Source: Oryzomonas sagensis
GTDB taxonomy: Bacteria; Desulfobacterota; Desulfuromonadia; Geobacterales; Pseudopelobacteraceae
Length of the DNA: 64,000 nucleotides
Assembly (NCBI RefSeq): GCF_008802355.1
Contig: NZ_VZRA01000001.1
Span: 800,525 to 864,524 of the forward strand
Direction: 5' to 3'
The notes beneath the pieces were generated by a model, which made no database searches, was not told the origin of the DNA, and worked only from the letters and a program-made list of their open reading frames with translations. Both the position numbers and the translations under genes were made by a program. Position 1 is the stretch's first letter. The number at the start of each line of letters is the position of its first letter. Shown piece after piece: positions 11,352-26,507 of this stretch.

Positions 11352-12002
11352 ATGCGAATTGGACTGATGGGGGGCACCTTCAACCCGGTGCACCTTGCCC
11401 ATCTTCACATAGCGGATGAGGCGCGGGAGGCCTGCGCCCTCGACCGGGTGGTTTTTATCCCGACCGGCGACCCGCCCCACAAACCGTTGGCGGGGGAGGT
11501 GCCCTTTGCTCTGCGCAGCCGCATGGTCGCTCTGGCGATCAGCGGCAATCCCTTGTTCGAACTGTCGCTGGTCGAGGGGGAGCGGGCCGGGAAATCCTAT
11601 TCCATCGATACGATCCGCGCATTCCGGGAGCGGTTTCCCCGGGATGAACTCTACTTCATCATCGGCAGCGATTCGTTCCTGGAGATCGGGCAGTGGTATC
11701 GTTTCCGGGAGATCTTCGCCGCCTGCAACCTGATCGTGGTGGAGCGGCCGGGCAAGCGCATCGGCGACCCGGTGGCAGCCCTTCCTGTTGCCATACGGGC
11801 AGAGTTCAGCTATACTTCCGGCGCGCGCAGGCTGGACCATGCTGCCGGCACCAGCGTCCAATTCCTTTCCGGCTGCCCGCTGGATATTTCGTCCAGCGAA
11901 ATCCGCGAGCTGGCGGCGGCGGGACGTTCCATCGCCGCTTTGGTGCCGCCGCAGGTGGCGGCCTACATTACAGAACAGGGGATCTACAACACATGCCGGT
12001 AA
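11352..12002 (+). CDS. nadD: Nicotinate-nucleotide adenylyltransferase
   Basis: NadD adenylates nicotinate mononucleotide to deamido-NAD in NAD synthesis. The 216-aa protein starts MRIGLMGGTFNPVHLAHLHI, containing the nucleotidyltransferase motifs GGTFNPxH and the (H/T)xGH-like HLAH at residues 15-18. It has the C-terminal signature ISSSEIR (SxTxxR-like) used in ATP binding. It overlaps rsfS by 10 nt, and the order nadD-rsfS-rlmH is common in bacteria, which supports all three calls. Confidence 0.95.
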   Translation: MRIGLMGGTFNPVHLAHLHIADEAREACALDRVVFIPTGDPPHKPLAGEVPFALRSRMVALAISGNPLFELSLVEGERAGKSYSIDTIRAFRERFPRDELYFIIGSDSFLEIGQWYRFREIFAACNLIVVERPGKRIGDPVAALPVAIRAEFSYTSGARRLDHAAGTSVQFLSGCPLDISSSEIRELAAAGRSIAALVPPQVAAYITEQGIYNTCR

Positions 12003-12406
12003 AGAAGACGACAGCAGCAGAGAAACCGGTGCTTTCCTCCCAGGAACGGGCATTGAAATGCGCCGAGTTGGCCTTTGACAAGAAGGCCTTCGACATCCGG
12101 GCCCTGGAAATCTCGAAGGTCTCCTCCATCGCCGACTATCTGGTGATCATCTCCGGGAACTCGGACAAGCAGAACCAGGCCATTGCCGACGGCATCCGGA
12201 CCGGCCTGAAGCAGTACGGCAAGATTCGGGATATCGAGGGGGAGAGCGAGGGGAAGTGGATCGTCATGGATTACGGCGACGTGATCGTGCATATCTTCAG
12301 CGACCAACTCCGCCACCACTACAAGCTGGACGAGCTTTGGCTCCTGGCGCCGGAACTGGACCTGCCGGAGCAGATCAGAAGCGCCCGCAAGGAAGACGAT
12401 TTCTAG
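11993..12406 (+). CDS. rsfS: Ribosomal silencing factor RsfS (Iojap family)
   Basis: RsfS binds ribosomal protein uL14 and blocks subunit joining when nutrients run low. ATG 11993 overlaps the nadD stop and gives 137 aa: a short Lys/Ala-rich head, then the Oligomerisation/RsfS domain with the motifs FDIRALEIS, ADYLVIISG and GKWIVMDYGDVIVHIF. The longer open frame upstream lies inside nadD and is not used. Preceding RBS AGGGGAT is about 11 nt from the ATG. Confidence 0.94.
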   Translation: MPVKKTTAAEKPVLSSQERALKCAELAFDKKAFDIRALEISKVSSIADYLVIISGNSDKQNQAIADGIRTGLKQYGKIRDIEGESEGKWIVMDYGDVIVHIFSDQLRHHYKLDELWLLAPELDLPEQIRSARKEDDF

Positions 12407-12407
12407 T

Positions 12408-12529
12408 CGGTTGTTGAAAAACAGCCATCTCGCCGTCGTCCTCGCAGGACCTTTCGTGCGGCGTAGCGCTGCTACGCCTCCTCAGGGCCTGCTGCGGATA
12501 CGACGATCTGACTATTTTTGAACAACCTG
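12408..12529. repeat. Intergenic inverted repeat, copy 2
   Basis: This is the second copy of the element at 5693-5776. It has the same outer ends (GGTTGTTGAAAAACAGCCAT and GATCTGACTATTTTTGAACA) but a centre about 38 nt longer that can itself fold (GGCGTAGC-GCT-GCTACGCC). It begins 2 nt after the rsfS stop, so it is likely transcribed as a stem-loop between rsfS and rlmH. Confidence 0.7.
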
Positions 12530-12563
12530 AGTTTTTTTGTAGTCTGACAGAACGGCACAAACC

Positions 12564-13022
12564 ATGAAACTCCGTGTAGTATGGGTGGGGAAGAGCAAGG
12601 AAGAGTGGGTTAAGGAGGCGCTGGCCGACTATGCCGGGCGCATCCGCCGCTACTGCCCGCTGGAGTTGTGCGAGGTGCGGGACGAAAAGGGCGCCGGGGC
12701 CGAAGAGATGCGGCGGCGCGAGTGCGAGCGGCTGGAAAAGCAGATTCCGCCCGGCGCGACCCTGGTGCTTTTGGACGAGCGGGGCCGCCAGATGGATTCC
12801 CCCGGATTGGCCGCTTTCATCGGGACACAGCGGGATGCCGGCGTCGGCGAGTTGGTTTTTGCCGTGGGCGGGGCCTACGGTTTTTCCGAAGAATTCCGCA
12901 GCCGTGGGCGGCTGCTCTCGCTGTCGAAGATGACCTTTACGCACCAGATGGTGCGGGTCTTCCTGTTGGAGCAGCTCTACCGGGCGTTCAGCATACTGAA
13001 TAACGAACCGTATCATCATTGA
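12564..13022 (+). CDS. rlmH: 23S rRNA pseudouridine(1915) N3-methyltransferase RlmH
   Basis: RlmH is a small SPOUT-class enzyme that methylates pseudouridine 1915 in helix 69 of 23S rRNA, using S-adenosylmethionine. The 152-aa protein has the family start MKLRVVWVGK, the trefoil-knot motif FAVGGAYGFSEEF and the conserved tail HQMVRVFLLEQLYRAFSI followed by NNEPYHH. Length is normal for the family. It follows rsfS after a repeat element. Confidence 0.96.
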   Translation: MKLRVVWVGKSKEEWVKEALADYAGRIRRYCPLELCEVRDEKGAGAEEMRRRECERLEKQIPPGATLVLLDERGRQMDSPGLAAFIGTQRDAGVGELVFAVGGAYGFSEEFRSRGRLLSLSKMTFTHQMVRVFLLEQLYRAFSILNNEPYHH

Positions 13023-13030
13023 ACCTAAAG

Positions 13031-13186
13031 GCAGTTATTCACCACAAAGGCACAAAGAGCACAAAGGATTCATAGCGTTAGGGGCGAAAGGCATTCACCC
13101 GAATGGTGAGTCCAGCCAATTATGAAATTGTCATGTAACTAACTGAAACCATTCTTTGTGTCCTTTGTGTCTTTGTGGTGAACTGC
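13031..13186. repeat. Inverted repeat of the CACAAAGGCAC variant family
   Basis: The left arm (13031-13067, starting GCAGTTATTCACCACAAAGG) and the right arm (13152-13186, ending GTCTTTGTGGTGAACTGC) are near-perfect inverted repeats of about 35 nt around 84 nt of unique sequence. It is related in style to the CACAGAGACAC elements but uses a different core. It occupies most of the rlmH-plsC gap. Confidence 0.65.
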
Positions 13187-13212
13187 TTTTTATAGGTTGA
13201 AGCGAGACAACC

Positions 13213-13929
13213 GTGGACGCTTCCCGAATTCGGGCATACCTGTATCTGGCGTTGTTTGTTCCAATCACCTTCCTCTTCGCCGCCAGCGCGCTTGTCGGCA
13301 CGCTGCTGGACGGCAGCGGGAGGCTCTACGCCGTTCACGCCCGGCTCTGGGCGCGGCTGGCCCTGGCCCTGGCCGGCGTCAGGGTGACGGTGAGCGGCAG
13401 CGAGCATCTCCCGGCCGGGCCGGTCGTCTTCATGAGCAACCACCAGAGCAATTTCGACATCCTGGCGCTCCTGGCGGCCATGCCGCGCCAGATCTACTGG
13501 ATCGCCAAGAAAGAGCTCTTCGACATCCCGGTCTTCGGCCCCTCCATGCGGCGCGGCGGCTACATCCCCCTGGACCGGGGCGACGGCCGCAAGGCGCTGA
13601 AGAGCATGGACAACGCCGCGGCGATCATCAGGGAGGGGAAGAGCGTGGTCATGTTCCCCGAGGGGACCCGCTCCCTGACCCGGGAACTGCTGCCGTTCAA
13701 GCGCGGCGGCTTCATCCTGGCGCGCAAGGCCGGGGTGCCGGTGGTCCCGGTCACGATCAACGGCAGCGGCAGGATCAACCCCGCAGGCCTGATCCGGCTC
13801 TCGCGGGGGAATATCGCTATCGTGCTGCACCCGCCGCTGGTTCTGCCGCCGGATATTTCAAAAAGTGAAGCCGAAACAGCACTGATGGAGCGGACCCGTG
13901 CCACCATCGTTTCGGCCCTGGAGCATTGA
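13213..13929 (+). CDS. plsC: 1-acyl-sn-glycerol-3-phosphate acyltransferase (PlsC family)
   Basis: The enzyme acylates lysophosphatidic acid to phosphatidic acid in phospholipid synthesis at the inner membrane. The 238-aa protein has an N-terminal hydrophobic segment (about 8-28) and the four acyltransferase blocks: NHQSNFD (catalytic H-x4-D), the GGYIPLDR block, FPEGTRS and a VPVVPVTING block. The start is GTG 13213, with a weak GAAGCGAG upstream; no ATG precedes the conserved region. The next gene starts directly after its stop. Confidence 0.9.
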   Translation: MDASRIRAYLYLALFVPITFLFAASALVGTLLDGSGRLYAVHARLWARLALALAGVRVTVSGSEHLPAGPVVFMSNHQSNFDILALLAAMPRQIYWIAKKELFDIPVFGPSMRRGGYIPLDRGDGRKALKSMDNAAAIIREGKSVVMFPEGTRSLTRELLPFKRGGFILARKAGVPVVPVTINGSGRINPAGLIRLSRGNIAIVLHPPLVLPPDISKSEAETALMERTRATIVSALEH

Positions 13930-14115
13930 ATGGAAATCGGTTATCAGTATCTCGCGCTGGTCGTTGCCGGTCTCGCCGCCGTTATCTGGGGGTTGCCCGC
14001 GGCCCATCGCCTGCAAAAGCCGTACGACATCGCCGCCGCGCTGGCGGTCCTGGCCGGCGTCATCCTGACGGCGGTCGGCATCCTGCTGACCATCATCCCC
14101 TCATTTTTCAGGTGA
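13930..14115 (+). CDS. Small two-helix membrane protein, function unknown
   Basis: This 61-aa protein starts immediately after the plsC stop. It has two hydrophobic helices (about 7-23 and 36-57) joined by a short polar loop containing RLQKPYD. I do not recognise a family. Tight packing between plsC and the next small gene suggests co-expression and perhaps a membrane-associated role. It could be a short variant of a DUF, but nothing in the sequence decides that. Confidence 0.6.
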   Translation: MEIGYQYLALVVAGLAAVIWGLPAAHRLQKPYDIAAALAVLAGVILTAVGILLTIIPSFFR

Positions 14116-14119
14116 ATTA

Positions 14120-14521
14120 ATGGACGAACGAATCAAGAAAACCGCCGTCAACGCCGCCGTCATCATCGTGCTCACCCTGCTGTTGTTCCTTGCCGGAACC
14201 TGGTGGCGGCTGGAGGCCCAGTTCCAGGCGGGCGAAGCGGCCTTCAGCAAGGGCGATTTCACCGGGGCGCTGGCGGGATACGAATCGGCCATCCATATGT
14301 ATATCCCCTCCCATCCGACTATCGAGAAGGCAGCCCAAAAGCTCTGGCTCCTGGGAGAAATCGCGGAGCGGCAGGGGGATGTCAACCGTGCCCTGATCGC
14401 CTACCGTGCCCTGCGGAGCGCCTTCTATGCCGACCGCTGGCTGGTGCAGCCCGGCACGGAGTGGATCGGGCGCTGCGACCAGAAAATCGCCATGCTGGTG
14501 CCGTTGCAGCGGGAGCGGTAA
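14120..14521 (+). CDS. Membrane-anchored TPR-like protein, function unknown
   Basis: This 133-aa protein has one N-terminal membrane helix (about 9-29, NAAVIIVLTLLLFLAGTWW). A helical periplasmic part follows, with TPR-like helix pairs (GEAAFSKGDFTGALAGYESA and GEIAERQGDVNRALIAYRAL). An AGGTGA box lies just before ATG 14120, inside the end of the preceding gene. It is the third member of a plsC-led cluster. No specific function can be assigned; a scaffold or assembly role is only a guess from the repeats. Confidence 0.65.
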   Translation: MDERIKKTAVNAAVIIVLTLLLFLAGTWWRLEAQFQAGEAAFSKGDFTGALAGYESAIHMYIPSHPTIEKAAQKLWLLGEIAERQGDVNRALIAYRALRSAFYADRWLVQPGTEWIGRCDQKIAMLVPLQRER

Positions 14522-14606
14522 CTTAGCTCAAGATCCATTCTCGGTACGCCCCGTAGCCTGAGGCCGTACCGAACCCATCGGCCCGTTGCGGCAGAAAGAA
14601 ACGTCT

Positions 14607-16283
14607 ATGGATACCCCAGAACCAACCAATAGCGCCCTTCAGATCATCCCCCTCGGGGGGCTGGGCGAGATCGGCCTGAACATGATGGCCTACCAGCACG
14701 GCGACGATATCATCATCGCCGACTGCGGCCTCATGTTTCCCGAACCGGAGATGCTCGGCATCGACTACGTCATCCCCGACATCGCCTGGCTGCGGGAACA
14801 CAGCGATCAGGTGCGCGCCATCTGCCTGACTCACGGCCACGAGGACCACATCGGGGCGCTGCCCTTCGTGTTGCAGGAGCTGAACGTGCCGGTGTACGGC
14901 ACGGCCCTGACCCTCGGCTTCGTCAACGAAAAGCTCAAGGAGTACAAGCTGGACGGGGTGGTCGAACTGGTCACGGTCAAGCCGAGGGACACGGTCGAGC
15001 TGGGCTGCTTCCGGGTGGAATTCCTGCGGGTGGCCCATTCCATCGTGGACGGGTGCGCCCTGGCCATCACGAGCCCGGAAGGCGTGGTGATCCACACCGG
15101 CGACTTCAAGATCGACCAGACCCCGGTGGACGGGGAGCTGACCGACCTGGCCCGGCTTTCCGCCTACGGCGACCAGGGGGTGCTGGCCCTGCTTTCCGAT
15201 TCCACCAACGTGGAGCGGGAGGGGTACACCATCTCCGAGAAGTACGTGGGCGAGGCCTTTGCCGACATCTTCCCCAAGTGCCAGGGGCGCATCATCGTGG
15301 CGGCCTTTTCCAGCAACATCCACCGCGTGCAGCAGGTGGCCGACGTGGCCATCGCCTGCGGCCGCAAGGTCCTCTTGAACGGCCGCTCCATGATCGCCAA
15401 CGTGCGCATCGCGCGCGAGCTGGGCTACCTGAACATCCCCGACGACATGCTCCTTGATGTGCGCGAACTGCCCTACCTGCCGCCCGAGCAGGTGTGCATG
15501 GTCACCACCGGCAGCCAGGGCGAGCCCATGTCGGCCCTGACCCGCATCGCCCTGGACGACCACAAGCAGATCAAGCTGGAGCGGGGCGACACGGTCATCC
15601 TCTCCTCGCGCTTCATACCGGGCAACGAGCGGACCATCTCGGAGCTGGTCAATCACCTCTACCGCCGCGGGGCCGAGGTCTACCACGAGAAGGTCTCCGA
15701 GGTCCACGTCTCGGGCCACGCCAGCCAGGAAGAGCTCAAGCTGATGATGAACGTGGTCCGGCCGCGTTTCTTCATGCCGGTGCACGGCGAATACCGCCAC
15801 CTGGTCAAGCATATCCAGCTCGCCCAGAAGGTCGGCATCCCCGAGGAACGCTGCATCCTGGCCACGAACGGCGACGTGGTGGCCTTTTACGCCGACACGG
15901 CGGCGATCATCGAAAAGGTGGAGGCGGGGCGGGTCTTCGTGGACGGCAAAGGGGTCGGCGACGTGGGGAGCGTGGTGCTCAAGGATCGCAAACACCTCTC
16001 CGAGGACGGCATGGTGGTGGTGATCATCGGCCTCAACCAGTCCAGCGGCGCCCTGATCCACGGGCCGGACATCGTCTCCCGGGGGTTCGTGTTCGAGGAC
16101 GAGAGCCAGGAGTACCTGGAAACCGCCCGCGGCATCGTGGTCGATGCGCTGGACGAACTGAACGACGAGATGCGCCGGGATTCGGAAGCGGTCAAGACCG
16201 CCGTGCGTCAGGCGTTGCGGCGGTTCTTCAAGAAGACTATTGAGCGGAGACCGGTGATTTTGCCGGTGATTATGGAGATGTGA
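14607..16283 (+). CDS. rnj: Ribonuclease J
   Basis: RNase J is a metallo-beta-lactamase-fold ribonuclease with endonuclease and 5'-3' exonuclease activity in mRNA decay and rRNA maturation. From ATG 14607 the product is 558 aa. It shows the GGLGEIGLNM start block, the zinc site HGHEDH (about residues 76-81), further metal ligands in HSIVDGC and HTGDFK, the beta-CASP motifs (SDSTN, SGHAS) and the C-terminal domain. The last zinc-ligand motif is MPVHGEYRHL. A strong terminator follows, and the AT-rich island begins beyond it. Confidence 0.95.
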   Translation: MDTPEPTNSALQIIPLGGLGEIGLNMMAYQHGDDIIIADCGLMFPEPEMLGIDYVIPDIAWLREHSDQVRAICLTHGHEDHIGALPFVLQELNVPVYGTALTLGFVNEKLKEYKLDGVVELVTVKPRDTVELGCFRVEFLRVAHSIVDGCALAITSPEGVVIHTGDFKIDQTPVDGELTDLARLSAYGDQGVLALLSDSTNVEREGYTISEKYVGEAFADIFPKCQGRIIVAAFSSNIHRVQQVADVAIACGRKVLLNGRSMIANVRIARELGYLNIPDDMLLDVRELPYLPPEQVCMVTTGSQGEPMSALTRIALDDHKQIKLERGDTVILSSRFIPGNERTISELVNHLYRRGAEVYHEKVSEVHVSGHASQEELKLMMNVVRPRFFMPVHGEYRHLVKHIQLAQKVGIPEERCILATNGDVVAFYADTAAIIEKVEAGRVFVDGKGVGDVGSVVLKDRKHLSEDGMVVVIIGLNQSSGALIHGPDIVSRGFVFEDESQEYLETARGIVVDALDELNDEMRRDSEAVKTAVRQALRRFFKKTIERRPVILPVIMEM

Positions 16284-16324
16284 CGGGGGAGCCTCACCTC
16301 TCCGCATAGTCGTAACCAAAGCAA

Positions 16325-16357
16325 GGGCCTACAGAGTCGATCTGTAGGCCCTTTTGT
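16325..16357 (+). terminator. Rho-independent terminator after ribonuclease J
   Basis: A perfect 11-bp stem (GGGCCTACAGA / TCTGTAGGCCC) closes a GTCGA loop and is followed by TTTTGTT. It lies 42 nt after the rnj stop. Confidence 0.92.
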
Positions 16358-16400
16358 TATGTCGCCGCACGTCCCCCTGTGCCTGTCCCGAACAACTTTT

Positions 16401-16511
16401 TTTGTATCAAAGTGATACAAATGACGGCGCCCGAACAGGTTTCGGGTGCCATTTTTCGTGTAAAAACAGTGGGATATGCAATGGCATTGTTTATGTTAAA
16501 TTTATTAACAT
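16401..16511. promoter_or_regulatory. Cluster of palindromes upstream of the island
   Basis: Three symmetric sequences lie in this gene-free stretch. TTTGTATCA-AAG-TGATACAAA (16401-16421) has perfect 9-bp arms. GGCGCCCGAA / TTCGGGTGCC (16426-16450) is followed by ATTTTTC and could be a second terminator. ATGTTAA-ATTTA-TTAACAT (16493-16511) has perfect 7-bp arms. The first and third could be operators for the island; no adjacent promoter is convincing. Nothing else is seen between the rnj terminator and the repeat at 16564. Confidence 0.4.
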
Positions 16512-16563
16512 GCTGAAATTGCGTTGAAATGTATGTTTGGGTGGAGTAGAAGGGGGATGGTGA

Positions 16564-16611
16564 GGGCAGCATATTGAATTAAGAGTTAAGTATGTTGCCC
16601 CCGGAACTCCC
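16564..16611. repeat. Palindromic REP-like repeat, left copy
   Basis: GGGCAGCATATTGAATTAAG begins a roughly 48-nt unit ending TATGTTGCCCCCGGAACTCC. Its two ends (GGGCAGCATA / TATGTTGCCC) pair with one mismatch. A second copy in direct orientation lies at 17609-17655, on the other side of the first island gene. Confidence 0.7.
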
Positions 16612-16677
16612 ACGTCTTTAGACCTGCCCGATGGTAGGTCAAGGCCGACCCCGTTGTGCAAATTAAATGGAGGACAG

Positions 16678-17535
16678 ATGGCACTCACTAAAGATTTGAA
16701 CAATAAAATTCACAGAATTGAGTCATCAGCCGCCGTTTTTCAAAAAGGTATATATCATTTGTTCTTGTTGTCAAATAAAGCTGAGATCGACATATACTCA
16801 ACTATTATTAGAAAATATCAGGTTTTGTTTCAGCTTTGCCTTGCGTGTTATCTGCTTGATTTTAATGCAAATATTGAAGTTAAAAACATCAACAAAAGAC
16901 TTAAAAAATTTTGTAAAGATCCCAACAGCCCAACTGGAGAAGAATTGGACCCGGCAGCTACAGTTACTCATTCAATATTTGAGAATGGTAACTGGCCGAA
17001 TAAAATTGGATCGACGCTGTACACTACTAGTAAAACATCTGTAACTCTAATATCTAAAGTTGTTAATGCGCGACATAACCTAATTTACAGACCTTTTTTG
17101 TTGCATAAGGACAAAATGCATTGGGGAGACTGTACCTTGATTGACCTGCTCAAAGAAGTGCCCAACACAACTGATATTATGGCAGTTTATGAACAATTCA
17201 TTGCCGAAGTATTTCAATATCAGGCAATTGAAATTTCTGATCAAAAGAAAATTTTAGAAGCTTTAAATAAAAACCCCAGAGAGTTTTCCTCGATATTAGG
17301 TAAAGGAGATCAAAAGTGGGCTGATTATTTCGTCCAACTTCAGTTCTGGCCCTTTGCAGACAAGGGTTCCAAACGACCGACAGAGACTTTACTGATTACG
17401 TATGCCAGAATGCTTAATCCGAACAATGACCAAATTTTGAGTGACTTGCGGAAATTTCGGAATAATTTTCTGCAGATTGAGAAGATAGTTCCCTTGATGA
17501 ACTTGAATCCAAGTTGGCGAGTAGGCGAAATTTGA
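16678..17535 (+). CDS. Island protein 1: unknown, with degraded HEPN-like motif
   Basis: This 285-aa, visibly AT-rich gene starts at ATG 16678 behind a good TGGAGGA. The protein looks soluble and mostly helical, with no signal peptide or clear membrane helix. Near the middle it has RHNLIY (residues 132-137), which resembles the R-N-x-L-I-H motif of island protein 4 but with Tyr in place of the His. I recognise no family. Direct repeats lie on both sides (16564-16611 and 17609-17655), so it may be a separate insertion from the three genes that follow. A HEPN-fold protein that has lost nuclease activity is a hypothesis only. Confidence 0.6.
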   Translation: MALTKDLNNKIHRIESSAAVFQKGIYHLFLLSNKAEIDIYSTIIRKYQVLFQLCLACYLLDFNANIEVKNINKRLKKFCKDPNSPTGEELDPAATVTHSIFENGNWPNKIGSTLYTTSKTSVTLISKVVNARHNLIYRPFLLHKDKMHWGDCTLIDLLKEVPNTTDIMAVYEQFIAEVFQYQAIEISDQKKILEALNKNPREFSSILGKGDQKWADYFVQLQFWPFADKGSKRPTETLLITYARMLNPNNDQILSDLRKFRNNFLQIEKIVPLMNLNPSWRVGEI

Positions 17536-17608
17536 TCTTGCACAACATGCGCACAGACCTTGACCGGGCTTGGTATTGAATAGGGACACTCCCCATTTGG
17601 CGAATGCC

Positions 17609-17655
17609 GGGGGCAGTATTAAATTGAGAGTTAAGTATGCTGTCCCCGGAATTCA
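17609..17655. repeat. Palindromic REP-like repeat, right copy
   Basis: This copy starts GGGGGCAGTATTAAATTGAG and continues through a TTAAGTATGCTGTCCCCGGA segment; the stretch GAGTTAAGTATG is identical in the left copy. A related tract (AGGGACACTCCCCATTTGGC) lies just upstream at 17582. Such repeats resemble those mobilised by REP-associated IS200-like transposases, but no transposase gene is present here. Confidence 0.65.
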
Positions 17656-17680
17656 CCAATGCATATAGATGCCATATACA
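17652..17680 (+). promoter_or_regulatory. Possible promoter for island genes 2-4
   Basis: TTCACC (17652-17657), a 17-nt spacer and TATACA (17675-17680) give a moderate sigma-70 match. It lies directly after the repeat and about 40 nt before the ATG of island gene 2. Confidence 0.35.
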
Positions 17681-17720
17681 TTCTAACTGGTGATTAAGGA
17701 GTTGGATGAAAGGAAGATAA

Positions 17721-18701
17721 ATGCAAAATTCGGTTCAAAACGTATTCATCAAAATACTTGACCATAATATAAGAAAAGTTCCCATACCTGAAAAAACCTC
17801 CGAAGAATGCCTCAATGATCTATATGATTATCTAAAAGAATTAAGAACCAAACACGTCAAGAAAAATTACTTGCAGAACCCGGCATATCTTGTAGGCTGG
17901 CTACATACTAAAAATAGAGTCCTTAAAACTGAAGCCGAAGCAAGTGGATTTTGTAGAGCTCACCTTTGCGTTGCAGAGTATTGCTTTGGCAAATTGCTAG
18001 AGGAAATTTCAAAAACACCCGAAGGTCACTCAGAAGAACGAATCAAATCTTTCAAAAACATGATCCATGAGTACTTACACGACCTGCGACCGATTGTTGA
18101 GTATTTAGAAAAAAAACAAGAACCAGCTTATTCATTTTTTGGTGGAGGCAAGTTTTACGGTACTTGGACGTTAGATTCATTCAGGATGTGTACAAATCTG
18201 TTTTGGACAAATGCGTTCGAAAAAAACTTTGTTGATATTCGCGCTGGCTTAAACCTTTCGACATTTTCATTACGGCAGAGCTTGGAGCTAAAATTTAGGC
18301 GTATTTTAGGAGTCAGGGCGATCACCCACAAGGCAACAGGTGATGAGCCAAAACTAAAACATGATTATTTTTACAAATTTATTATATCCGAAACAGATCA
18401 TTTCAAGTTTTACACGCCACATATTACGGCGATCTGGAAAATTTATGAATGGACGAATATGACAGTACATACTGGAAATATCCCTAGAATTTGGGAACTT
18501 CAATATGCTATTGAAATAGTAACACCCTTTTTTGCACCACAACCAGCATCATCAAGTGGAAAGTGGTCGATTGACAGTAGCGTCGAAATTTATGACTACC
18601 AAGGGCTTAAGGACAAGTTCAAAGCTTTATTCCACAATAAATACACAGAAGCTGAATGGACTATCCATTTTGAGAAGCCTGAAGCTGTACTTCAACAGTA
18701 A
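17721..18701 (+). CDS. Island protein 2: unknown
   Basis: This 326-aa product of an AT-rich gene has no signal peptide or membrane helix and looks helical. Two stretches stand out: a basic helix SLRQSLELKFRRILGVRAIT (about residues 191-210) and WTNMTVHTG (residues 244-252). Paired Arg/Glu helices plus an N-x3-H helix are reminiscent of HEPN-fold proteins, but the usual Arg is missing, so this is weak. It is first in a three-gene unit with 36 and 33 nt gaps and good ribosome sites before genes 3 and 4. No family is recognised. Confidence 0.6.
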   Translation: MQNSVQNVFIKILDHNIRKVPIPEKTSEECLNDLYDYLKELRTKHVKKNYLQNPAYLVGWLHTKNRVLKTEAEASGFCRAHLCVAEYCFGKLLEEISKTPEGHSEERIKSFKNMIHEYLHDLRPIVEYLEKKQEPAYSFFGGGKFYGTWTLDSFRMCTNLFWTNAFEKNFVDIRAGLNLSTFSLRQSLELKFRRILGVRAITHKATGDEPKLKHDYFYKFIISETDHFKFYTPHITAIWKIYEWTNMTVHTGNIPRIWELQYAIEIVTPFFAPQPASSSGKWSIDSSVEIYDYQGLKDKFKALFHNKYTEAEWTIHFEKPEAVLQQ

Positions 18702-18737
18702 ACTTTCAATAATAAGTTGGAACAAGGAGTAAATGAA

Positions 18738-19838
18738 ATGGAACAAAATGCATTGTTTTACCCCCATATCGGTTTACATAACCCCTCATGGATTAAGGCA
18801 ATGGCTCTTTTTTACGACACTATTTATCGGATCGTTCCAGACAATGTAATCCCTGACGATTCTCCAGAATTACAGCCTTTGCTTGAAGAGGGGTCAATTG
18901 GGAGAATGATTGATCCTGCAAAATACTCAAAACAAGCTTCCGAGGAGTTCTTGGCTAAAATCGATGATTGGCGCGCCGCAGCCCTATGCTTCAGTGATGA
19001 AGAAGAACAAGAGCTATCAAGGCTACACACTGATAAGACAGATGAAAGAGTACGCGAGCTTTTCCGCGAAGCAGGATATAAAGAAGAAAATAATTGGATG
19101 TATGTTCCGACTGCGCTTGCTTCAAACTTCATGCTCTATATGGCTAATTTGATAGGAACGCAAAACAAATTGTCGCTCATTACAAGTGATTGGGGCGCTT
19201 GGACGGGGACAAGTTATTTTGGTCTCAATGGGCAGATAGACGAATTTATTATCAATATTGGACAAGAATGTGACGATGATTTTGCTGAAGCTTTCGGGCT
19301 TTTTGGGCTTGTTTTGAGTGAGCTTGTTCCTATAAATATTGCAGAAATTCCCGCAAATGACATACTCAAGTTCCGAGATAAAAGACGAGATGAAATAAAC
19401 AATTTTAGAAAATGTATGCATGATTTACGTGAAGAATTATCAAAGCTTGAATCACATGAAGTTAAGATCGGTACAATACAAGACAAGGTAAAAGAGTTGA
19501 TTAGAGTGCAGGATCAGTATAAGTCAAGTGCTGATATCATAAAAGCTAAGGGCTGGTTTGGTGTTTCACTGATGGGTTTTCCTGCTCCAATGATATTTGG
19601 CCAGCTATTTTCAATTCCACATGCTTCTACTGTTGCTTTAGGTGCTGCAGGGCTTTCAATTGGTGGTTTATTCAATATCCAAAACACGAAAGAAGAACTT
19701 AGAAAACTTAATCAGCAAAACACTGCATCGTTCTTGGTTGAGTTACGAAAATCCTTCAAAGGGTATACTCATGCCAGGGGCGGCGGAGATATTAATTTCC
19801 ACGCATTCAATTGCATGGAAGAATACGTAAACGACTAA
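18738..19838 (+). CDS. Island protein 3: DUF6236-like protein with hydrophobic segment
   Basis: I start it at ATG 18738, eight nt after AAGGAG, rather than at TTG 18717. The 366-aa protein opens ALFYPHIGLHNPSWIKAMAL and continues FYDTIYRIVP. This matches, from memory, the DUF6236 family (YYPYI..W.K...L..D.I.RIVP), whose function is unknown. A charged coiled-coil-prone region (about 218-265) precedes a hydrophobic Gly/Phe-rich segment (about 272-314) that could span or insert into a membrane. It sits between two helical cytosolic-looking proteins, so a membrane-acting effector or a platform is possible. The function is inferred, not shown. Confidence 0.62.
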   Translation: MEQNALFYPHIGLHNPSWIKAMALFYDTIYRIVPDNVIPDDSPELQPLLEEGSIGRMIDPAKYSKQASEEFLAKIDDWRAAALCFSDEEEQELSRLHTDKTDERVRELFREAGYKEENNWMYVPTALASNFMLYMANLIGTQNKLSLITSDWGAWTGTSYFGLNGQIDEFIINIGQECDDDFAEAFGLFGLVLSELVPINIAEIPANDILKFRDKRRDEINNFRKCMHDLREELSKLESHEVKIGTIQDKVKELIRVQDQYKSSADIIKAKGWFGVSLMGFPAPMIFGQLFSIPHASTVALGAAGLSIGGLFNIQNTKEELRKLNQQNTASFLVELRKSFKGYTHARGGGDINFHAFNCMEEYVND

Positions 19839-19871
19839 TCGAAACCCGCCAAGTAATTTGGAGATAAATTC

Positions 19872-20759
19872 GTGAAACCTCGATGTGATAATCCAGATGA
19901 ATGTTACAGGTGTTTAACATCCCCTGCTGCGCCTCGCTTTGCTCCACGTTTAAAATTCATTCCGCGTTCCATTCTTCAAGCCTGTAAAGTTTCAGCAAAA
20001 CTCGACACCCCATCTTTTGAAATACAATCGTTCTGCAATCGAGACCTTGAGTTTAAAAAACTCTCAAAGGCTGCGAGAGAAGATTTGAAAGTTTTTCTGG
20101 AAGAGGTAAATTCAGAAAAGGCAATAGTTGATAAGTACATGGCTGAACAAGCTATAGATGAAGAACGTGTATCCTACGACCCACTAGAACACCACGAATC
20201 CCATGTGTTGTTTAAAATAGATACTGAACTTCACAGAGCGTTTAGCCGTCTAAATAACTCAATCTCTAGTTTTTCGAATACGCTAGGATCAACATTCATT
20301 ACCTTTAAAGATATATCCGGATACAAAATAGGATATGGAGAAATCAATTATTGGCATGTTTCTGCACTTCAAGATGCTTATCTTCTTCGTACTAGGCTTT
20401 TCATGGCAATGGACTTTATTTACGCATTGCATTTGGCAGAATCATCAACTGCTATCGATTATACTGAGTGGAAAAGCAAAGCTGTAAAAAAGTTCAATAT
20501 CAAATTCAACATTTCTTCTCGCAATCGACTTATTCACACGCGGTTTCTTGACGCGAGAAGCCCTGTCTTAATGTACATAGTTCATGTAGGTGATGATATA
20601 AGAGAGCGATTTTTGAAAGATGCAAGGATTCAACAGCACTTGAGTGATGAAAAAATTTCGTGGGAACAGTATGTTAAAGAACTTAGAACGGCAGTTTTGT
20701 CATACTCAGACTTTATTTCTGAATCAGTCAGGCTGTTGAACATTCTCAACCAAATATGA
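19872..20759 (+). CDS. Island protein 4: putative HEPN-type protein with R-x4-H motif
   Basis: This 295-aa product starts at GTG 19872 behind TTGGAGA with 8-nt spacing. The N-terminus has a small Cys cluster (Cys5, Cys11, Cys14) that might bind a metal. The rest is helical. Residues 217-222 read RNRLIH, a textbook form of the R-x4-6-H motif of HEPN ribonucleases, where Arg, Asn and His form the active site. It is last in the three-gene unit. HEPN proteins are common in toxin-antitoxin and anti-phage systems, but a single short motif is not proof of the fold. Confidence 0.58.
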   Translation: MKPRCDNPDECYRCLTSPAAPRFAPRLKFIPRSILQACKVSAKLDTPSFEIQSFCNRDLEFKKLSKAAREDLKVFLEEVNSEKAIVDKYMAEQAIDEERVSYDPLEHHESHVLFKIDTELHRAFSRLNNSISSFSNTLGSTFITFKDISGYKIGYGEINYWHVSALQDAYLLRTRLFMAMDFIYALHLAESSTAIDYTEWKSKAVKKFNIKFNISSRNRLIHTRFLDARSPVLMYIVHVGDDIRERFLKDARIQQHLSDEKISWEQYVKELRTAVLSYSDFISESVRLLNILNQI

Positions 20760-20870
20760 AACTGACCAAGTTCCAATACGCGCTCAGGCCATGGCCGGGC
20801 GATAAAGCTGCCCGCCAGTTCAAGCGCAGCACCGTTATAGCGAAATCAGCTCTTCCCAGTGCCCACTTTT

Positions 20871-20945
20871 GTCCGTACCGGGGAGCCAGTACGGACTCGA
20901 ACCAAGACCATATCCTCGCCCGCTTGACACCCCATCCCCGCCGCG
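20871..20945. other. Hairpin and possible tRNA-like remnant at the island's right end
   Basis: GTCCGTAC and GTACGGAC (20871-20878, 20889-20896) form a perfect 8-bp hairpin around ten nt. Read on the minus strand, the same stretch contains GGTTCGAGTCC (T-arm-like) and TGGGGTGTCAAGCGG, close to the start of tRNA-Gln with three bases missing. A complete cloverleaf cannot be formed. It may be a decayed tRNA used as an integration site, or chance. Confidence 0.3.
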
Positions 20946-20952: not shown

Positions 20953-21045
20953 CAACTGTGTAAAATATCTACTCAAACTGGGCCGCCAATAAGCGCGGGA
21001 TGCGCCGCTCCGCAGAGCGAATCCCGCCCCAACTCAGGAGCACAT

Positions 21046-23868
21046 ATGCCCAACGATACAAGACTGGACGCCCTGCGCGCCAAGATCGCCACCTATGGCA
21101 AGGAGAACCAGGGGGAACTGCTGTACGCCCTCTCCGAGGGAGCCCGGCTGCTGTCGGGGAGCGAACGGGTGCGCATCTACCTGGAGGACCTGACCCGGGG
21201 GGCGCTCTCCTGCGTGTATGCCACCGGCGACCAGGCGGCGGCCATCCGCGACGTGCATTTCCCCATCATCTCCACCGAGACCGTGGTTTCCAGCGTCTTC
21301 GTCAGCCAGTATCCCGTGGATTTCAAGAGCGCCACGGCCCCACTCCAATCGGCCGACCGCCTCTTCGCCGAGACCTTCGGCTTTCGCGCCGCCTGGATCA
21401 TGCCGGTGGTGAGCCTGGGCAAATCCATCGGCGTGCTCTGCGTCGACAGCGAGGCGGGCGGGGAGATCCTGAACGCCCAGGACAAGTCCCTTCTGGCCGA
21501 TTTCGCCGGTTTCACGGCCGACCGGCTCGACCAGGCCCGCATCTACCACCAGCAGGTGCAGTTGGCCCGCCGCCTGGAGGAGTTCAAGGCCCGGGAGGCG
21601 GCGGGCATGATGGTGCAGTCGGCGGTGCGGCTGATCGAGAAGCTTTCCCTGGCGTCGGTCCTCGTGCCGGGGCAGCAGCCGGGTGCGGTGGTGGGTGAAC
21701 TGGAAATCCTGGCCAGCTATTCGGAGGACGCGGGACTCAAGGCGCTCTACGACCAGCAGGGCTCCATCGACCTGCACCGGGGCAAATCGCTGATCTCCCT
21801 GTATGTGAACGATCAGGCGGTGATCGACGACGAGCGCCTGCTCAAGCCGATCTTCATCGCCGACCTGACCCAGCACCGGCTGCAAAAGCGGGAGTTGACC
21901 GAGTCCATGGCCCTGCGTTCGCTGTATGTGGTGCCGCGCTTCGAGCCCAAGAGCCGCCGCGTCATCTGCCTGGTGAACTATTTCTCCCACGACCTGTACC
22001 GTTTCAGCGATTTCGAGATGGGGCTGTTGCAGACCCACGCCGAGATGGTGGAACGGGTCATCAGCGAGGTGGGGGGCGAACACCTGGAGATCCGGGTCCT
22101 GTCCGAGATCACCGACCTATTGAACGAGAGTACCGAGAGCCTCCAGCCGTTTTTGACCAAGGTGCTCTCCAAGGCCACCGAACTGATCGGCGCGGATACC
22201 GGCAGCATCGCCGTGGTCAGCGAGCGGGACGGGGTCAAGTGGCTGGTGGTGGAGGACGAGGCCGGGACAATCATCGGCGCCAAGAACAAGGAGTGGCTCA
22301 AGAGGTATATCCCGCCGTTTCTCATCGGTGGCGAGGAGTTGCCGCCCGAGGAGCGCAGCCTCACCGGCTACGTGGCCTTCACCAAGCAGCCCAAGATCAT
22401 AGCAAAGGTCGAGGAGGAACAGCAGGCCGGCGGCTTCCACCGCTCCATGAGCGATCTCCTGAAGAGCGAGATCGCCGTGCCGGTCATCTGCGACGACGAG
22501 GTGATCGCGGTGATCTGCCTCAACTCCCTGTACCACGACCATTTCCGCGAGGAGCATCGCCGCATCCTCCAGATCATCGGCTCCCTGACCGCCCGGCACA
22601 TCTCGGACCTGCAACGCATCGAACGCCTCCAGGGGGAGGTGAACCGGCTGACCAACGACGTGGCCTACAAGGACCCGCACGTCTCCTCCTACCGCCTGGG
22701 CAACATGATCGGCAACAGCTCCGCATCCCAGGCCGTGGTGGAGTTCATCAGCACCGTCTCGCCGCCGCTGTTCAACCGGATCGTCTTCTGGAACCGCAAC
22801 ATCCTCCAGGAGGCGACCATCGGCCTCCCGTCGATCCTGGTGACCGGCCCCACCGGTTCGGGCAAGGAGTTTTTCTTCAACAACCTGTACAACAACTTAA
22901 ACGGCCTCTACCGCCAGCAGATCAACCCGGGGGGCGAGCTGCCGGTCAAAAAGACCAACATCGCCGCCTATGCCGGGGACCTGACCTATTCCGAGCTGTT
23001 CGGCCACAAGAAGGGGGCCTTTACCGGCGCCTACACCGACCGGCGCGGCATCCTGGAGGAGACCATCGGCGGCATCGTCTTTTTGGACGAGATCGGCGAC
23101 GCCGACCCCAAGACCCAGGTGCAACTGCTCCGCTTCCTGGACAACGGCGGGTTCGTGCGCCTGGGGGAGAACACGGAACGCTACAGTCGCGTGCTCGTAG
23201 TGGCCGCCACCAACAAGAACCTGCAGGAGGAGATCGCTGCCGGCCGTTTCCGCGAGGACCTGTACCACCGCCTGGCCGAGCTCTCCATCCGCCTCCCCTC
23301 CCTCAACGAGCGGCGCGAGGATATCCCCGACCTGTCGGTGCACTTTCTGGGCAAGCTGTACCGTACCTACCGGGGCGAAAGCGAACCCTCGGACAAGCCC
23401 CCCGTCCTCACCAAGGGGGCCAAGGAGATTCTCACGCGGCACACCTACAAGGGGAACATCCGCGAACTGCGCAGCATCCTGCTCAGGACGCTCTTCTTCC
23501 GGCGCACGAACGTCATCTCCGGCGACGCCATCGCCCAGGCCATTGCCGGCATGGGCGGGGGCGATACCGGCGCCCGGCCGCTCCCGCCGGCCCGCGACCT
23601 GGACGAGCGGCTGGCGGATGACATCCTGGAACGGATCGCCGCGGGGGGCGATTTCTGGGGCGAGGTCTACGAGCCGTTCACCCGCAGCGACATCCCGCGG
23701 GAGACGGTGCGGCTGGTGATCGAGAAGGCGCGCGCCGCGGCGGGCAAGACCATGCCGGCCGTGGCGCGCCATCTCAAGGCGGTGGTAGCTGGCGGAGATG
23801 CGGAGGAGGAGCGGCTGCGGCTGTACAAGTTCAAGAATTTTCTCTACAAGACGGTGAAGATCGGCTGA
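21046..23868 (+). CDS. GAF-domain sigma-54-interacting transcriptional regulator
   Basis: This is a bacterial enhancer-binding protein of 940 aa from ATG 21046 (AGGAG 8 nt upstream). The N-terminal 530 residues hold two or three GAF-type sensor domains. The AAA+ domain follows, with Walker A GPTGSGKE (about 601-608), the sigma-54-contact loop GAFTGA (about 656-661), Walker B-like IVFLDEIGD and an arginine-finger region REDLYHRL. The Walker A to GAFTGA stretch carries extra residues compared with NtrC. The C-terminus (AGKTMPAVARHLKAV) is only vaguely like a Fis-type helix-turn-helix. The ligand and target genes are unknown; no linked sigma-54 promoter was found. Confidence 0.88.
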   Translation: MPNDTRLDALRAKIATYGKENQGELLYALSEGARLLSGSERVRIYLEDLTRGALSCVYATGDQAAAIRDVHFPIISTETVVSSVFVSQYPVDFKSATAPLQSADRLFAETFGFRAAWIMPVVSLGKSIGVLCVDSEAGGEILNAQDKSLLADFAGFTADRLDQARIYHQQVQLARRLEEFKAREAAGMMVQSAVRLIEKLSLASVLVPGQQPGAVVGELEILASYSEDAGLKALYDQQGSIDLHRGKSLISLYVNDQAVIDDERLLKPIFIADLTQHRLQKRELTESMALRSLYVVPRFEPKSRRVICLVNYFSHDLYRFSDFEMGLLQTHAEMVERVISEVGGEHLEIRVLSEITDLLNESTESLQPFLTKVLSKATELIGADTGSIAVVSERDGVKWLVVEDEAGTIIGAKNKEWLKRYIPPFLIGGEELPPEERSLTGYVAFTKQPKIIAKVEEEQQAGGFHRSMSDLLKSEIAVPVICDDEVIAVICLNSLYHDHFREEHRRILQIIGSLTARHISDLQRIERLQGEVNRLTNDVAYKDPHVSSYRLGNMIGNSSASQAVVEFISTVSPPLFNRIVFWNRNILQEATIGLPSILVTGPTGSGKEFFFNNLYNNLNGLYRQQINPGGELPVKKTNIAAYAGDLTYSELFGHKKGAFTGAYTDRRGILEETIGGIVFLDEIGDADPKTQVQLLRFLDNGGFVRLGENTERYSRVLVVAATNKNLQEEIAAGRFREDLYHRLAELSIRLPSLNERREDIPDLSVHFLGKLYRTYRGESEPSDKPPVLTKGAKEILTRHTYKGNIRELRSILLRTLFFRRTNVISGDAIAQAIAGMGGGDTGARPLPPARDLDERLADDILERIAAGGDFWGEVYEPFTRSDIPRETVRLVIEKARAAAGKTMPAVARHLKAVVAGGDAEEERLRLYKFKNFLYKTVKIG

Positions 23869-23894
23869 GGAGAAATTTTCGGAACGGAACGAAC

Positions 23895-23925
23895 GAAGGC
23901 CGGGCGCACCTGCTGCCCGGCCTTC
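23895..23925. terminator. Hairpin between convergent genes
   Basis: A perfect 11-bp stem, GAAGGCCGGGC / GCCCGGCCTTC, with a 9-nt loop. It lacks a clear T-tract on the plus strand but sits between two convergent genes and probably ends transcription from one or both. Confidence 0.6.
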
Positions 23926-23951
23926 GCTGTTATGGGTGGTGTATTACGCCG

Positions 23952-26507
23952 TTACCACGTCTGAACGCCCGGCCCGCTGTGGCATCCGCTGACGGCCAGG
24001 CTGCCGTGGGTGCAGGTGGCGCCGGTGCCGCGCGGCGTCTTGGGCACGATGCCGGCGGCGGTGTTGACTACGTTCGTCTGGCTGGTGCCGCTGGTCATGG
24101 TCTTGTTGGGGCCGTGGTTCACCCCGGCGCCGGAACCGGCGGCGACGGTGCCCGCGGCGACGGTGCCGGTGAACCTGCCGGTGGTGTCCACATTGGGGTG
24201 GCAGTAACCGCAGCTCGCCCCCTGATGGCTCGGATGGCGGGCATTCGTGTTGGTGCCGCGGATGTTGGGCCAGGTGGTGCCGGTCGGGGCGGCCAGCGTG
24301 CCGGTGCCGCCGGTGCCGTGGCACGATTTGCAGTTGCCCAGGCCGTTGCCGGTGCCCAGGGGATCGGCCAGGGTGTGGCACGCCATGCAGTCCGGCGGTA
24401 CGCCGGTGGCGGCCGGATAGGGGGAGGCGGCCGTGCCGGTGCTGTGGCAGCCGCCGTTGGCCGCCAGGCAGGAGGCCGCGGCCGAGGCGTTATGGGTCAG
24501 GTAGGGGACGGTGTGGGCTCCCGTGGCATCAACAACGCCGTTGATGTGCTTGGTGGCGTCGGTGAAACCGGTGCCGCTGCTGTTGACGTGGGGGTGGCAG
24601 GTGATGCACTGGGTGGCGGTTACACCGGAGTGCGGCGCAACCATCGGAGGATAGCCGTGGCATGTGGAACAATCACCTGAACCGGGTGTGGTACTGCCGT
24701 TGCCGACAACACTGGCGACCCCCAGAAACGGGGCGTTCCACGCCGGGATTGCTATTCTTGAGCCAGGAGGGTTGCTTATGTTGCTGGCCATGGTACTGCC
24801 GTGACAATAGGTGTTGGCGCAGGTGAATGTTGCCATGGTGAAGGCCGGCGTTGCACCGTTGGCGGTGCTGAGAACGCCGCCGAATACGACCGCACCGGCT
24901 TGGGTGCTGGTGGCGGTTCCCAGTTCAATATTTTTGGCCCGCAGGAAATGGTCGAGCGTACCGGAGCCGAGACCGGAATGACATTCGGTGCACAGTCCGC
25001 CGGTGGGAACGTTCAGGGCGGTATGGCTGCTGTGGACGCGATTGATGTTCGGATACGTCGTGCCGCTGGGGGGCTGGGAGTGGCAGGAACTGCACGGATC
25101 CGCGCTGGAAATGGTAGCCGTCGGCAAGGCGCCCACATGGCAGCTCTGGCACTTTGGACCGACACCACCGGTCAGAGTCGCGCCATGGCAGCGATTGCAT
25201 GCGTCGAAATTGGTGGCGGTCCGGTGACGGAACCATGGGGTGCCGAGGGGATCGGGACTGGTGATGCCAAAGGCCGCTGGAATCTGAAAGACCGGCGGGT
25301 GGGCCGTATTGGGCTCGTGGCACGTTTCGCAGCCTGACGTCAACCGGCCCAGCACGGCATTGAAGCGTGGATTGGTGCCGGGGCCGCCGGTCGGGTTGTT
25401 GGCGTGACAGGTCTGGCAGAAGGTCAGGTTGGCCTTGGCGGTCGCCCCATGCTGGGCCGGATCGGCCCAACCGGCCGGATGCCCCATGGAACCGTGGCAT
25501 AGGGTGCTGTTGAAGCAACTGGGAGTACCGGTTGCATAGGTGGTAAGTATCGGCGTGCTGAGATTGGCGCCCTTGAGATGGCATTGGGCGCAGACGGCGG
25601 CATTCAAGCCCAAGGCATCATCGACCGTGGTAGTGTGGGTCGGACTGGGCGAAGTTGCATGCCAAGGGAGCGCCGCGTGGGGGGCATTCACCGGAGAGCC
25701 GTTGCGCAGGTGGCAACTGCCGTTCTGGGAATTGGCCGAGAAACAGCTGACGCCTGAAGATCCGCCCCTGAAATCAGTGCCGTGACAGTTTTGGCAGTTG
25801 TTGAAACCGGCGCCGGTACCTGGTTGCGATTTGGCCGCCGCGCCGTGCTGAGCGGGAGCGATCCAACCGGCAGGGTGAAGTCCGGCATGGCAGAGAGTGT
25901 TGTTGAAACAGTCGGGTTGCGCCCCGGCGGCCGGGGCGGGGGGCATGGGAAGGTTCGTAAGGAATCTACCGCCCGCGTGGCACTGGTAGCAGGCCGCCGC
26001 GTTGTTTGAGTTGGTCGTGGAATGATTACTCGTGGTACTGGTCGCCCAATTTTTGGCATGGGGGGCGCTTACTCCGTGGCAGGTAAAGCAGGAAACCGAC
26101 GATAGCAGGCCGCCCACATAGCCGCTGCCGTGGCAACCGCGGCAACTGTCGAGACCGCTGGAAAAGGTGGGAGCAGACTTGGCGGCAGCGCCATGGATCT
26201 GGGGATTGGCATAGCCTGCCGGATGGAAGTGGCAGGTCGTGGCGCCAAAGCCTTGGCTGAAACAGCTTACCTTGGCGATACCGCCCTTAAGGTCGCTGCC
26301 ATGGCATTCGGCGCAGCTTGTTGTTTGGGCGGCCGCTTGACTGTCGGCCGCTCCGGCGGTCTGCCGGAAAAACGAGGCATGGTTCTGAATCCAGTTGGCC
26401 GGATGTTTGCCGGTCGCATCAAGGATTCCCGCCTTATCGTTGCTCTTGCTGCATCCGAGTACAATAAAAAAAACAAACAATATCAAGCTGCACCGAAATG
26501 AGATCAT
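23952..26507 (-). CDS. Large multiheme c-type cytochrome lipoprotein (extracellular electron transfer)
   Basis: The 851-aa precursor has a lipoprotein signal (lipobox VLGC, Cys19), so it is probably anchored on the outer membrane. I count 17 canonical CxxCH heme motifs. There are also about seven spaced variants: CANTYCH (Cx4CH), CFNNTLCH and CFNSTLCH (Cx5CH), one Cx6CH and three Cx9CH. The CxxxxCH...CxxCH pairing is a known Geobacter cytochrome signature. The N-terminal half repeats a unit built on HPAGW-x4-QHGAxAK followed by CxxCH. It is the third gene of a porin, 5-heme lipoprotein, large cytochrome operon, so it most likely faces outward and passes electrons to extracellular acceptors. 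RBS TAGGAG; 10 nt from the preceding gene. Confidence 0.9.
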   Translation of the reverse strand: MISFRCSLILFVFFIVLGCSKSNDKAGILDATGKHPANWIQNHASFFRQTAGAADSQAAAQTTSCAECHGSDLKGGIAKVSCFSQGFGATTCHFHPAGYANPQIHGAAAKSAPTFSSGLDSCRGCHGSGYVGGLLSSVSCFTCHGVSAPHAKNWATSTTSNHSTTNSNNAAACYQCHAGGRFLTNLPMPPAPAAGAQPDCFNNTLCHAGLHPAGWIAPAQHGAAAKSQPGTGAGFNNCQNCHGTDFRGGSSGVSCFSANSQNGSCHLRNGSPVNAPHAALPWHATSPSPTHTTTVDDALGLNAAVCAQCHLKGANLSTPILTTYATGTPSCFNSTLCHGSMGHPAGWADPAQHGATAKANLTFCQTCHANNPTGGPGTNPRFNAVLGRLTSGCETCHEPNTAHPPVFQIPAAFGITSPDPLGTPWFRHRTATNFDACNRCHGATLTGGVGPKCQSCHVGALPTATISSADPCSSCHSQPPSGTTYPNINRVHSSHTALNVPTGGLCTECHSGLGSGTLDHFLRAKNIELGTATSTQAGAVVFGGVLSTANGATPAFTMATFTCANTYCHGSTMASNISNPPGSRIAIPAWNAPFLGVASVVGNGSTTPGSGDCSTCHGYPPMVAPHSGVTATQCITCHPHVNSSGTGFTDATKHINGVVDATGAHTVPYLTHNASAAASCLAANGGCHSTGTAASPYPAATGVPPDCMACHTLADPLGTGNGLGNCKSCHGTGGTGTLAAPTGTTWPNIRGTNTNARHPSHQGASCGYCHPNVDTTGRFTGTVAAGTVAAGSGAGVNHGPNKTMTSGTSQTNVVNTAAGIVPKTPRGTGATCTHGSLAVSGCHSGPGVQTW

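Follow-up and report, generated by a model that had tools for sequence, protein, structure and literature searches.

An orphan cargo protein, possibly a HEPN-like ribonuclease, in a partly defense-linked integration hotspot of Oryzomonas sagensis

The stretch of the Oryzomonas sagensis genome analyzed here, 64,000 nucleotides long and called the window below (contig NZ_VZRA01000001.1, positions 800,525 to 864,524), contains an AT-rich insert of approximately 4.3 kb (positions 16561 to 20826), delimited by its GC content and by comparison of its flanks with those of congeners. GC content is 37 to 41% within the insert (500-base steps, 16500 to 20499) and 56 to 73% in the flanks (steps 12000 to 16499 and 21000 to 25999). 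The insert sits between two conserved genes, and its last gene, p4 (19872 to 20759, forward strand), is the subject of this work. p4 encodes 295 amino acids from a GTG start codon, with a GGAG at 19860 to 19863, 8 nt ahead of the GTG. Given that 295 open codons are expected by chance with a probability of only about 1.6e-9 at this base composition, and that its codon-position GC and purine bias resemble those of its neighbors p1 to p3, p4 is very probably a real gene.

The left flank of the insert was present in all five congeners searched. Both flanks were compared in four of them (G395 to G398), the contig of the fifth (G399) ending at the site; in these four genomes, homology on the left ends at around 16287 to 16560 and resumes on the right at around 20827 to 20920. 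None of p1 to p4 was found at this site in the congeners (best tblastn E value of 0.20). The congeners' own contents are diverse: a DUF4124-glutaredoxin gene in G396; a DUF4124-glutaredoxin-like gene and a HigB/HigA-like pair (both recognized by eye) together with a TIR protein in G398; a TPR membrane protein, a caspase-domain protein, an IS200-like transposase, and other genes in G397; and a chemoreceptor (recognized by eye) in G395. Judging from these sequences, we regard the site as an integration hotspot of exchangeable, partly defense-linked genes. p4 is an intact cargo gene of this chromosomal hotspot, which collects genes partly of defense type.

Two copies of a palindromic, REP-like repeat lie in spacers of the insert, the first at 16572 to 16609 and the second at 17617 to 17654; p1 is located between them, and p3, p2, and p4 follow the second copy. 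The repeat is likewise found twice in G398, twice in G397, and once in G396 (among the congener stretches, at 2492 to 2552 of L021 and at 4341 and 4560 of L023), with none in the hotspot stretch of G395. When three mismatches were allowed, the few other loose matches elsewhere looked like chance, and a 24-mer core of the repeat, with two free positions and no mismatch, occurs three times in two of six genomes of the genus, always at the hotspot. In G397, parts of the spacer at 16.3 to 16.6 kb are present three times.

The first gene of the insert, p1 (16678 to 17535, forward strand; 285 amino acids from its ATG), is an orphan for which our searches found no homolog. It carries the strings RHNLIY and RPFLLH, both of the form R-x4-Y/H, and might on this basis be counted as a second, weak HEPN-like candidate. 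p3 (17721 to 18701, forward strand; 326 amino acids) ends 36 bp before the ATG of p2. It has no family match in Pfam, NCBIfam, PADLOC, or PHROGs and none in viral contigs, and its matches among plasmids are weak and confined to its C-terminal half (Pseudoalteromonas, E value of 0.01; Nostoc, E value of 0.03).

The gene directly upstream of p4, p2 (18738 to 19838, forward strand; 366 amino acids, with the ATG placed as in its closest relative), belongs to the family DUF6236 (PF19749; E value of 3.1e-8, 33.6 bits, above the cutoff of 26.2), which Pfam describes as being of unknown function and which was named in no paper found in our literature search. Six nearly full-length relatives, 54 to 87% identical to p2, come from two Desulfuromonadaceae metagenome-assembled genomes (MAGs) and from Oxalobacter, Chlorobiaceae, Fibrobacter, and Sporomusa records; in the resulting alignment of seven sequences, the C terminus is nearly invariant, with HA.NCMEEY.ND in all seven. 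A seventh relative, with a broken frame, comes from a Paludibacterium region that contains phage-tail-like genes (recognized by eye), and the eighth is a partial, 81-residue match near the edge of the available stretch of a Thiodictyon MAG. Defense genes lie beside or around the p2 relative in five of the eight distinct loci: type I restriction at two (L008/L029 and L028), BREX PglZ-BrxL at L031, an AAA protein plus IetS (IetAS) at L030, and a TIR-effector match at L027. At L026 and L032, where most surrounding genes were inspected without a family search, no adjacent defense gene was recognized by eye among the open reading frames (ORFs) listed, although at L032 an ORF resembling a DNA methyltransferase is located some 4 kb away from the p2 relative. 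This distribution suggests that the DUF6236 gene is an accessory common to many defense systems.

The boundaries of similarity at these loci bear on how p2 travels. The DNA ceases to resemble the window no more than 6 bases away from the p2 stop codon in six of the eight loci (L026, L027, L028, L031, L032, and L033, the sequence of L033 covering the side before p2 only briefly) and 13 bases short of the stop at L030; no DNA similarity to the window was found around p2 at L008/L029. At the closest locus the similarity covers 18718 to 19838. Furthermore, no match to p3 or p4 better than an E value of 1 is encoded in L026 to L035 or in L008 to L010, the best p4 match in the loci of p2 relatives being no better than 1.2. 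Since DNA similarity stops by the end of p2 and these loci lack p3 and p4, p2 is a module of one gene that moves on its own, and that it lies close to p4 consequently does not prove that the two work together.

p4 had drawn attention through the string RNRLIH, which the first-pass annotation described as a canonical R-x4-H motif of HEPN ribonucleases. The open reading frame on the forward strand and the position of the motif at residues 217 to 222 (R217 to H222; codons at 20520 to 20537) are both confirmed. As a description, "canonical" is apt: the string fits the pattern Rx4-6H, and Asn218 supplies the polar residue after the Arg, where the passages of PMC3710099 (Anantharaman et al. 2013) that deal with the motif give a preference for N, D, or H. 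As evidence the motif carries much less, being only mildly above chance. Of the residues of p4, 7% are Arg (21 of 295), and 49% of 4,000 shuffles of the protein contained an R-x4-H; the narrower pattern R[ND]xxxH turned up in 6.8% of them and R[NDH]xx[LIVMFA]H in 3.8%. Taken by itself, the motif is weak evidence for a HEPN protein. From the shuffle rates, at least one R[ND]xxxH would be expected by chance with a probability of about 17% over the four island proteins together. In the window outside the island, 38 ORFs (17,423 amino acids; chosen mechanically, such that not all of them are necessarily genes) contain 36 occurrences of R-x4-H in 19 ORFs, two occurrences of R[ND]xxxH, and none of RNxxxH. 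RNRLIH in p4 may be a chance match.

An acidic E-x3-[KR] motif in helix 2 characterizes many, but not all, HEPN families; in p4 this pattern occurs only at residues 199, 245, and 265, and none falls in the segment corresponding to helix 2, whose placement is of low confidence. The N-terminal cysteines that had been suggested as a sensor or metal site, Cys5, Cys11, and Cys14, are indeed present in the translation (codons within 19884 to 19913), all within 14 residues of the start codon and in this one sequence only.

Searches for relatives of p4 covered plasmids, phages, viral and genome contigs, and sets of genomes from its own phylum and from three others, and none of them returned a homolog. 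Protein searches of 395 genomes of the phylum, 97 relatives, and 277 genomes of the class, three overlapping sets, gave p4 itself as the only convincing match, along with two weak matches among the 97 relatives (E values of up to 0.1) and four among the 277 genomes (up to 0.05). There was no match at an E value of 0.05 in seven whole genomes holding p2 relatives and no convincing one in sets of 398, 348, and 267 genomes from the phyla of three of these p2-relative genomes, of which the 348-genome set gave five weak matches at E values of up to 0.01 and the other two gave none. Nothing at an E value of 0.1 came out of tblastn searches of plasmids (72,556 records) and phages (50,697 records), and six pattern scans with p4 or parts of it (five of viral contigs, one of genome contigs), which are seeded by exact 8-residue peptides and so miss distant relatives, found no relative. 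As far as these sequence searches reach, p4 is an orphan, which does not imply that it is unique.

The distinct weak matches number ten, one of them (L002) being common to the searches of 97 relatives and 277 genomes, which by our estimate is about or below the chance expectation for so many genomes. Upon realignment, nine of the ten scored higher than every one of 200 shuffled versions of the frame concerned; this is to be expected when matches have been picked as the best from whole genomes and gives no support. Only two, L002 and L040, span the motif. The L002 frame pairs RNRLLHT with RNRLIHT of p4; it runs antisense to an uninterrupted frame of 1,054 codons and has no Pfam match below an E value of 0.08, and was hence judged spurious. 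L040 was rejected as a homolog since it lacks the Arg and its ORF resembles an ABC-binding protein. Inspected by eye, the ORFs around these matches belong to a YicC/guanylate-kinase/P-type ATPase region (L039) and a LacI/ABC-binding-protein region (L040), and to lipoprotein-like genes (L042). Within the insert, p4 showed no similarity to p3 or p2 when aligned, and its best local alignment with p1, although it pairs RNRLIH with RHNLIY, is not significant (its score was reached by 21 of 400 shuffles; BLASTP E value of 0.14).

Profile searches were similarly unrevealing. hmmscan of p4 against Pfam, NCBIfam, PADLOC, and PHROGs gave chance-level scores only and no HEPN model, a result to be read with the proviso that divergent true members can escape profiles; the C-terminal 195 or 145 residues gave chance-level scores only against Pfam and NCBIfam. 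The matches that we judged to be due to chance were MAG6450 (E value of 0.041), phrog_13043 (0.11), and, with fragments of p4, SID (0.12 to 0.14) and SigX (0.017 to 0.022). phmmer against the PDB returned nothing below an E value of 0.8.

The predicted structure of p4 is uninformative, as AlphaFold2 had a single sequence to work from: mean pLDDT was 39.0 for the whole protein and 40.7 for residues 96 to 295. Both low-confidence models are mostly helical. In the model of residues 96 to 295, helices at 118 to 138, 163 to 190, and 197 to 207 precede the motif and a long helix at 264 to 294 follows it; the motif itself starts a helix (216 to 227) in the model of the whole protein and lies in a loop in the model of residues 96 to 295. 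According to the structural description in PMC3710099, the HEPN motif is found where helix 3 finishes, ahead of the loop that leads into helix 4. The modeled helix order of p4 is compatible with such a position, but given the low confidence and the disagreement between the two models this does not count as evidence.

Compared with known systems, p4 would resemble the HEPN superfamily in its R-x4-H motif with Asn after the Arg, in probably being all-helical, and in its defense-type surroundings. It differs in lacking a profile match, a confident fold, homologs that would show conservation, and an E-x3-[KR] in the putative second helix, and in possessing the N-terminal Cys cluster. With the HEPN/MNT toxin-antitoxin pair HepT/MntA (PMC7641770), p4 would share the catalytic motif; in contrast to that pair, its neighbors p1 to p3 include no nucleotidyltransferase family, nor any antitoxin-type family, in Pfam, NCBIfam, PADLOC, or PHROGs. 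The gene downstream of p4 encodes a GAF/sigma-54 activator (Pfam), and p4 does not belong to the DUF6236 family of p2.

How, then, should p4 be interpreted? Among the helical effectors of defense-type settings, HEPN proteins are common. This background, together with the preferred Asn after the Arg and the defense-type hotspot, leads us to favor a HEPN-like ribonuclease as the likeliest individual mechanism for this orphan cargo protein, though we claim nothing stronger. We put the probability at only about 0.4 because p4 has no profile match and no confident fold prediction, and because chance alone could give the motif. At least as likely is that p4 is a helical orphan outside the HEPN superfamily, maybe a regulator, an adaptor, or phage-sensing cargo, in which RNRLIH arose by chance. 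A motif only mildly above expectation, the absent HEPN profile match, and an Arg content that favors chance occurrences would all be explained in this way, and the antisense frame of L002 illustrates how easily such strings arise; the preferred Asn, the partly defense-type neighborhood, and, at very low confidence, the location of the motif where a HEPN one could sit in the rough helix order speak for a HEPN protein instead. Between these possibilities, we cannot tell whether the earlier HEPN interpretation is right: it is neither supported nor refuted.

Two further explanations concern the gene rather than the motif. The arrangement of p3, p2, and p4 on one strand, where just 36 bp separate the p3 stop and the p2 ATG and 33 bp separate the p2 stop and the p4 GTG, and the presence of p2 relatives beside other defense genes might suggest a single three-gene defense system with p4 as effector and p2 as sensor or regulator. 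We consider this unlikely, given that L026 to L035 hold no p3 or p4 match better than an E value of 1 and that DNA similarity halts so close to the p2 stop in six of eight loci. That p4 is a gene in decay, or a reading frame that encodes nothing, would agree with the lack of homologs in the searched data and is highly improbable in view of its open length, its codon-position bias, and its well-placed GGAG.

If p4 is a HEPN-like, metal-independent ribonuclease, its C-terminal helical domain (approximately residues 118 to 294) would hold R217 and H222 close to the point where the third helix ends, and the protein would dimerize. Once triggered, it would cut host or phage RNA and so might halt the growth of the infected cell. 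H222 would activate the 2'-OH and R217 would stabilize the intermediate or bind the backbone, with no metal involved, in line with the metal-independent catalysis by the motif's His and Arg that is proposed for the superfamily in the mechanistic part of PMC3710099. HEPN fold, catalysis, toxicity, and trigger, like any partnership of p4 with p2 or p3, are what we infer for such a protein. A bolder version, in which p4 founds an undescribed HEPN family with an N-terminal cysteine sensor and entered a Desulfuromonadaceae-type hotspot as exchangeable cargo, its neighbor there being a DUF6236 gene that acts as an accessory to a wide range of defense systems, strikes us as rather unlikely.

Regardless of p4, the DUF6236 gene recurs, well conserved, in several phyla at type I restriction, BREX, IetAS, and TIR loci, which makes it a testable accessory of several such systems. 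Should p4 prove to belong to the HEPN nucleases, it would represent an additional family, one missed by all four profile libraries used here, and would show how much of the defense repertoire rapid divergence can hide.
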